From NCBI GenBank assembly GCA_947038115.1, contig CAMQVF010000012.1, positions 1 to 34,765 of the forward strand: 34,765 nt of DNA, in the 5' to 3' direction. Under the pieces are notes generated by a model. The model did not search any database. It had not been told where the DNA came from and worked only from the letters and a program-made list of their open reading frames with translations. Position 1 is the stretch's first letter; each line of letters opens with the position of its first letter. The stretch is from an uncultured Spirochaetia bacterium (lineage in GTDB: Bacteria; Spirochaetota; Brachyspiria; Brachyspirales; Brachyspiraceae). Shown in pieces: positions 3,320 through 3,619 of this stretch. Made by a program: the position numbers and the translations under genes.

Positions 3320-3348
3320 TTGACTTTTTATTTGTAAATCAGTATACT
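3320..3348 (+). promoter_or_regulatory. Strong sigma-70-type promoter of the small RNA
   Basis: TTGACT at 3320-3325, an exact 17-base spacer and TATACT at 3343-3348 match the housekeeping consensus at 5/6 and 5/6. The predicted transcription start is about 3352-3356. It resembles the two tRNA promoters in this window (CTTGAC followed by a T-rich spacer), which suggests a constitutively strong unit. No coding sequence follows before the terminator. Confidence 0.8.
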
Positions 3349-3351
3349 ATG

Positions 3352-3434
3352 ACTAGTAAGGTAATTGGTCACAAGCCGATTCCTTTCATAAACCTCCTTA
3401 TCAACCCTGCTTTACCGTAGCAGGGTTACTTTTT
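3352..3434 (+). ncRNA. Small RNA with exposed anti-Shine-Dalgarno motif
   Basis: A predicted transcript of about 83 nt, not recognised as a known family. Hairpin 1 pairs 3358-3368 with 3376-3385 (AAGG, bulged U3362, AAUUGG against CCGAUUCCUU; 10 pairs including one G-U), with loop 3369-3375. Hairpin 2 pairs 3403-3411 with 3419-3427 (AACCCTGCT/AGCAGGGTT, loop 3412-3418) and is followed by T residues, so it is an intrinsic terminator. The roughly 17-nt single-stranded linker contains ACCUCCUU at 3392-3399, identical to the core anti-Shine-Dalgarno sequence of bacterial 16S rRNA. The promoter, terminator and exposed C-rich seed are seen directly; that it is a trans-acting regulator binding mRNA ribosome sites is inference. 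No start codon with a reading frame lies inside on this strand. Confidence 0.65.
3403..3434 (+). terminator. Intrinsic terminator of the small RNA
   Basis: A perfect 9-bp stem (AACCCTGCT with AGCAGGGTT) with a 7-base loop, followed after AC by five T. In the other direction the stem is not followed by a T tract, so termination is on the + strand. Confidence 0.8.
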
Positions 3435-3590: not shown

Positions 3591-3619
3591 TTAATTGGCA
3601 CAGTTATTGCATATATAAT
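3591..3619 (+). promoter_or_regulatory. grpE-dnaK promoter with sigma-54-like element
   Basis: TTGGCACAGTTATTGCAT at 3595-3612 fits the sigma-54 consensus (TGGCAC, five bases, TTGCA), with GG at 3597-3598 and GC at 3609-3610 in exact -24/-12 spacing. It would start transcription near 3622, about 27 bases before grpE. The same stretch can be read as a sigma-70 promoter: TATAAT at 3614-3619, a 17-base spacer and a poor -35 (TTAATT, 3591-3596). Sequence alone does not decide between them. The strong ribosome site AAGGAG (3638-3643) follows. Confidence 0.5.

Follow-up and report, generated by a model that had tools for sequence, protein, structure and literature searches.

What does the short segment upstream of grpE at positions 3320-3434 encode, and what would its product act on? 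The window is a 34,765-nucleotide stretch of DNA from a 1.77 Mb assembly (G000) that represents a sister genus of Brachyspira in the family Brachyspiraceae. An earlier note on this DNA had proposed a transcript of about 83 nt without an open reading frame, bounded by a promoter and an intrinsic terminator, with the core anti-Shine-Dalgarno (anti-SD) sequence of 16S rRNA lying between two hairpins. The features at the locus are as follows:

3320..3348, + strand: sigma-70-type promoter, TTGACT-17-TATACT; -35 and -10 boxes preserved in every one of the 27 family copies
3356..3434, + strand: small RNA (sRNA) gene of ~79 nt with predicted start at G3356, placed by the spacing to the -10 box and by alignment with relatives
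3358..3385, + strand: 5' hairpin, with one predicted at the equivalent place in most relatives
3384..3403, + strand: conserved seed (linker) UUUCAUAAACCUCCUUAUCA; 19/19 sites identical in G000, G011 and G028, which represent three genera
3392..3399, + strand: anti-SD octamer ACCUCCUU, equal to the 3' end of this genome's 16S rRNA
3403..3434, + strand: intrinsic terminator, with a 9-bp stem at 3403-3427 and a T-run at 3430-3434
3596..3611, + strand: sigma-54-type (-24/-12) promoter TGGCACAGTTATTGCA serving grpE-dnaK-dnaJ; neighbouring feature, outside the sRNA

The promoter and the terminator were both recovered where the earlier note had placed them. The -35 box (TTGACT, 3320-3325) and the -10 box (TATACT, 3343-3348) are separated by a 17-nt spacer and match the consensus at 10 of 12 positions. 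The promoter scan was non-significant by itself (7 found, 8.2 expected from shuffling). Terminator-like sites numbered 2 in a 1-kb stretch, compared to 0.2 expected. The predicted RNA start, G3356, lies ~7 nt past the -10 box, and the predicted RNAs of relatives start at the homologous G. We observed no ATG within the sRNA transcript, in line with the proposed lack of an open reading frame, but the start lies closer to 3356 than to 3352, and the length is corrected from ~83 nt to ~79 nt.

The predicted fold consists of two hairpins with the octamer open between them (-24.8 kcal/mol, z = -5.2; no shuffled sequence equalled it). Folding from the predicted start G3356 gave a z of -5.3, and the mean unpaired probability of the octamer in the predicted fold was 0.97. 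The genome's own 16S rRNA terminates in ...GGATCACCTCCTTTATT, so the label anti-Shine-Dalgarno is literally correct, and the proposed placement of this sequence between two hairpins agrees with our prediction. The octamer ACCTCCTT occurs only once in the window, at 3392-3399. Because 0.56 occurrences are expected per window on both strands, the octamer alone is unremarkable, and the weight rests on its placement in the linker and on its conservation. The octamer singled out in the earlier note is present, but the significant block is wider and covers the whole of the seed at 3384-3403.

We searched 393 Spirochaetota genomes with a pattern that combines the promoter and the seed. Of the 29 Brachyspiraceae, a set that includes B. 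murdochii 56-150T (G011; PMC3035287) and B. intermedia PWS/A (PMC3163572), 27 gave exactly one match each. The 364 other Spirochaetota genomes gave 7 scattered matches, which is the background rate, and a reversed-pattern control gave 11 matches over all 393 genomes and 0 in Brachyspiraceae. The pattern was used for this survey because a covariance model built on Brachyspira copies alone (R1) recovered that genus only and missed known copies. In a mixed alignment (A1) the terminators were misaligned, and the output of RNAalifold on it was uninformative on covariation.

The order of parts was common to 26 of the copies extracted by DNA search (-35 box, -10 box, 5' hairpin, TAAACCTCCTTATCA, terminator with T-run). 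The 15-nt core UAAACCUCCUUAUCA (TAAACCTCCTTATCA) was unchanged in 26 genomes from three genera. The 27th copy, upstream of grpE in G002, kept the core AACCTCCTTAT, the promoter and the terminator and had lost the bases flanking the core. That this genome keeps just AACCTCCTTAT of the seed points at the anti-SD as the presumptive indispensable part. Seed identity between genus representatives was 95-100%, compared to 71-75% against G002. The 5' hairpin was 42-61% identical between representatives and was missing from the minimum-energy fold of the G002 copy. Terminator identity was 48-91%, and the stem was preserved with differing sequences in relatives. A slowly changing open linker between fast-changing stems looks like the pattern of a base-pairing sRNA.

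By the promoter and seed pattern, we found no sRNA in G004 (88% complete) and G021 (99% complete). In both of these Brachyspira-group genomes (L071 and L073, respectively), dnaA is followed directly by grpE, and the sRNA is not in between. These are apparent losses, or the gene may have moved to a form outside the reach of the pattern. As the two genomes are without the sRNA by this pattern, the lineage does not require it. The earlier note had made conservation of the linker octamer and the hairpins in relatives its decisive comparison, and this expectation was borne out by the octamer in 27/29 family genomes. On comparative grounds, it is close to certain that this is a real, single-copy sRNA gene of the family Brachyspiraceae.

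Other occurrences of seed-like sequence were also inspected. A recurrent Brachyspira site, TAATCCTCCTTATCA, was rejected as a second sRNA copy, as it lies inside coding sequence (peptide NPPYQ). Three viral contigs carrying a seed-like 17-mer were likewise rejected, the promoter and terminator arrangement being absent in each; one of these 17-mers lies ahead of the start of a gene on the opposite strand, and two are within gene-like sequence.

The sRNA was found in three genomic contexts. It lies between dnaA and grpE in Brachyspira and between a divergent LamG/fn3 protein gene and grpE in the window. In G028 its neighbours are a LacI-type regulator gene and miaA, and it is transcribed against both. 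Its same-strand position upstream of grpE in the window, G001, G002 and the examined Brachyspira genomes would suit a 5' leader or attenuator of grpE-dnaK-dnaJ, in which the terminator sets readthrough and CCUCC sequesters or releases an SD. Such an element would always sit directly upstream of grpE and hold its only promoter; instead, the sRNA is not adjacent to grpE in G028, and past the terminator there is a separate sigma-54-type promoter for grpE. The motif TGGCA[CT]-N5-TTGC was present 53-105 nt before grpE in 13/13 family genomes examined, whether or not the sRNA adjoined, and the match at 3596-3611 is the sole one in the window. The duplex between the linker and the grpE ribosome-binding site (RBS) was just moderate (-12.9). 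We therefore consider a grpE leader very unlikely. The three contexts and the separate grpE promoter indicate that the sRNA is its own transcription unit. With regard to the operon itself, sigma-54 control of a heat-shock chaperone operon (grpE-dnaK-dnaJ) would be unusual.

With its own promoter and terminator, and a conserved anti-SD seed that is predicted to be accessible, the gene has the parts expected of a trans-acting anti-SD sRNA. The seed is complementary to UGAUAAGGAGG-UUU-AUGAAA, that is, an SD plus start codon (AAGGAGG-UUU-AUG). We assessed the pairing of the linker with start regions in a sample of ~0.8 Mb of G000 and ~400 kb of G011 (B. murdochii). The mean was -8.70 kcal/mol for 731 genes of G000, compared to -7.64 for the best of 60 shuffled linkers, and -8.75 kcal/mol for 303 genes of G011, compared to -8.05 for the best of 60 shuffles; this statistic measures capacity and not use, as pairing with SDs would be seen for any sequence that contains CCUCC. 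Gene interiors paired worse with the linker than start regions did (-6.3 vs -9.0).

The best individual start regions reached -20 to -27 kcal/mol and included those of a Spy-like exported protein and an ABC permease. The metal-resistance/Spy-like exported protein, whose Pfam Metal_resist match was slightly below the cut-off, has the start GATAAGGAGAGTTT-ATGAA and gave duplexes of -24.9 to -27.3 kcal/mol (L154, L155, L156). Its start motif was read in three genomes, and the same motif was present in a fourth. Strong duplexes were also predicted with the start regions of an exported-protein gene (-25.6) and of further genes encoding signal peptides. A search for the exact extended target GATAAGGAGGTTTATG, with 1 mismatch allowed, returned essentially the sRNA itself only, and among the sampled start regions we detected no individual target whose extended complementarity is conserved between genera.

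We also observed a short leader with promoter-like sequence upstream of rnf-like genes in G000 (contig C1 near 85,900; L141:1455-1585). Within it lies a 9-codon ORF, directly followed by a strong hairpin; the start of this ORF, ATAAGGGTTTATGAAAAAA, shows complementarity to the seed of the sRNA (-20.9 kcal/mol). This leader is possibly a target, a sponge or an attenuator.

We compared the sRNA with small RNAs of similar design. In streptococcal csRNAs (cia-dependent small RNAs, RF02379), a pair of stem-loops flanks an unpaired stretch that is complementary to the SD and AUG, and CAU is present in 53/61 of these RNAs (PMC3091779). Control of comC by csRNA pairing was shown via compensatory mutations (PMC4507080). 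The Brachyspiraceae sRNA likewise has two stem-loops and an open linker complementary to SD and AUG. The csRNA model spanned its full length (1-93) on the Brachyspiraceae sRNA but scored 16.6 bits, compared to a threshold of 57 (E = 6.2); homology was not detectable. A search of the window against Rfam at gathering and permissive thresholds returned just two tRNAs, with csRNA at noise level. We found one copy of the sRNA per genome (27 genomes), whereas csRNAs have several siblings, five of them in S. pneumoniae. The two also belong to different phyla and differ in linker order and flanks, and csRNAs are CiaRH-controlled, which the Brachyspiraceae sRNA is not known to be. The Brachyspiraceae sRNA is csRNA-like in design and stands outside that family. 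It is new and specific to Brachyspiraceae, and its functional kind is known already.

Rhizobial anti-SD sRNAs such as NfeR1 (PMC10746234) are described as trans-acting, with anti-SD motifs that pair with mRNA RBSs. The NfeR1-type family in Rfam did not match the Brachyspiraceae sRNA. By description, NfeR1-type RNAs are set apart as alphaproteobacterial RNAs with a different motif and structure. The Gram-positive RsaE, FsrA and LhrC act with a C-rich single-stranded seed at SDs and are largely or partly Hfq-independent. Their seeds are different, the start-codon part is absent, and none of the three had an Rfam match to the Brachyspiraceae sRNA. These comparisons uphold the remark in the earlier note that other bacterial sRNAs pair with ribosome sites; streptococcal csRNAs share the architecture, and we found none described for Brachyspira.

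Overall, the locus probably encodes an independent sRNA of csRNA-like type, which acts in trans and keeps translation from being initiated on many mRNAs. Positions 3320-3434 (+) would form an independent gene for a ~79-nt regulatory RNA, present as a single copy across Brachyspiraceae, which would display its unpaired and near-invariant seed with a protective hairpin on the 5' side and the terminator hairpin on the other. The ACCUCCUUAU portion of the seed would pair with the Shine-Dalgarno sequence, and CAUAAA would pair with the start codon region, in many mRNAs. This pairing would compete with the 30S subunit and lower translation. If regulation is selective, the affected mRNAs would be those with AUAAGGAG..UUUAUG starts. 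We infer transcription of the sRNA, its pairing in the cell, the direction of its effect and the identity of its targets from sequence. A PF17209 search for Hfq gave no match in 29/29 Brachyspiraceae genomes and, as a control, matched 5/14 known genomes, including E. coli and B. subtilis. As no Hfq homologue was detected, the sRNA would act without Hfq.

Several other readings of the seed were weighed. One assigns it to the minus strand, where AAGGAGG-TTT-ATG would give a small protein its RBS and start codon. An ATG does follow the SD-like sequence in most copies, but the peptides are unrelated between copies (MKGIGL, MKRDN, MKNCINLT..), G001 has no ATG there, the spacing after GGAGG is just 3 nt, and the + strand carries both the conserved promoter and the T-run of the terminator. 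We regard this reading as extremely improbable. A protein partner is a less remote explanation: the linker may be bound by a protein (e.g. a binder of the 16S 3' tail, or S1), with the RNA serving as a decoy or titrating molecule. Conservation exceeds the 8 bases in common with 16S rRNA (AUAA...UUAUCA), and its strictness past the octamer could reflect a protein or RNA partner instead; the lack of a conserved extended target among the start regions sampled is also consistent with such a decoy. However, the linker outside the octamer is unlike the 16S tail, the additional conserved CAU is what start-codon pairing predicts, and G002 retains AACCTCCTTAT only. Overall, a protein decoy appears rather unlikely. 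It is quite unlikely that the sRNA is a global mimic of the 16S tail, that is, an abundant Hfq-free RNA that masks SD sites generally and tunes total initiation in Brachyspiraceae. The earlier note had offered both regulation by RBS pairing and a bare 'decoy 16S tail'. The former is the best-supported mechanism, and the latter is less fitting than a csRNA-like RNA because the seed includes CAU.

The strongest duplexes, with the Spy-like protein, the exported protein and other signal-peptide genes, would also suit an sRNA dedicated to a single primary envelope target or a small number of them, similar to enterobacterial envelope-stress sRNAs. Among the top-20 start regions of G011, 11/20 were signal-like, compared to 24% (P = 0.002). 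The enrichment in G000 was weak (P = 0.047), and without the bases from the start codon on, the counts were 6/20 in G011 (P = 0.36) and 5/20 in G000 (P = 0.44). Because the enrichment was gone without start-codon bases, it is explained by the AUG-AAA-AAA starts of signal peptides, and we do not claim an envelope regulon. A target conserved across genera was not found for this reading either, and we consider it unlikely.

Brachyspira are intestinal spirochaetes, and several are animal pathogens. We found no small RNA described in Brachyspira in the open-access literature. The csRNA-like, trans-acting RNA that we favor is a family-wide and sharply delimited sRNA candidate, with a nearly frozen seed in a drifting scaffold. 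Its csRNA-like design in another phylum, with Hfq undetected, points to a possible independent invention of the same solution. The sRNA would provide a simple, testable entry to post-transcriptional control in Brachyspira.
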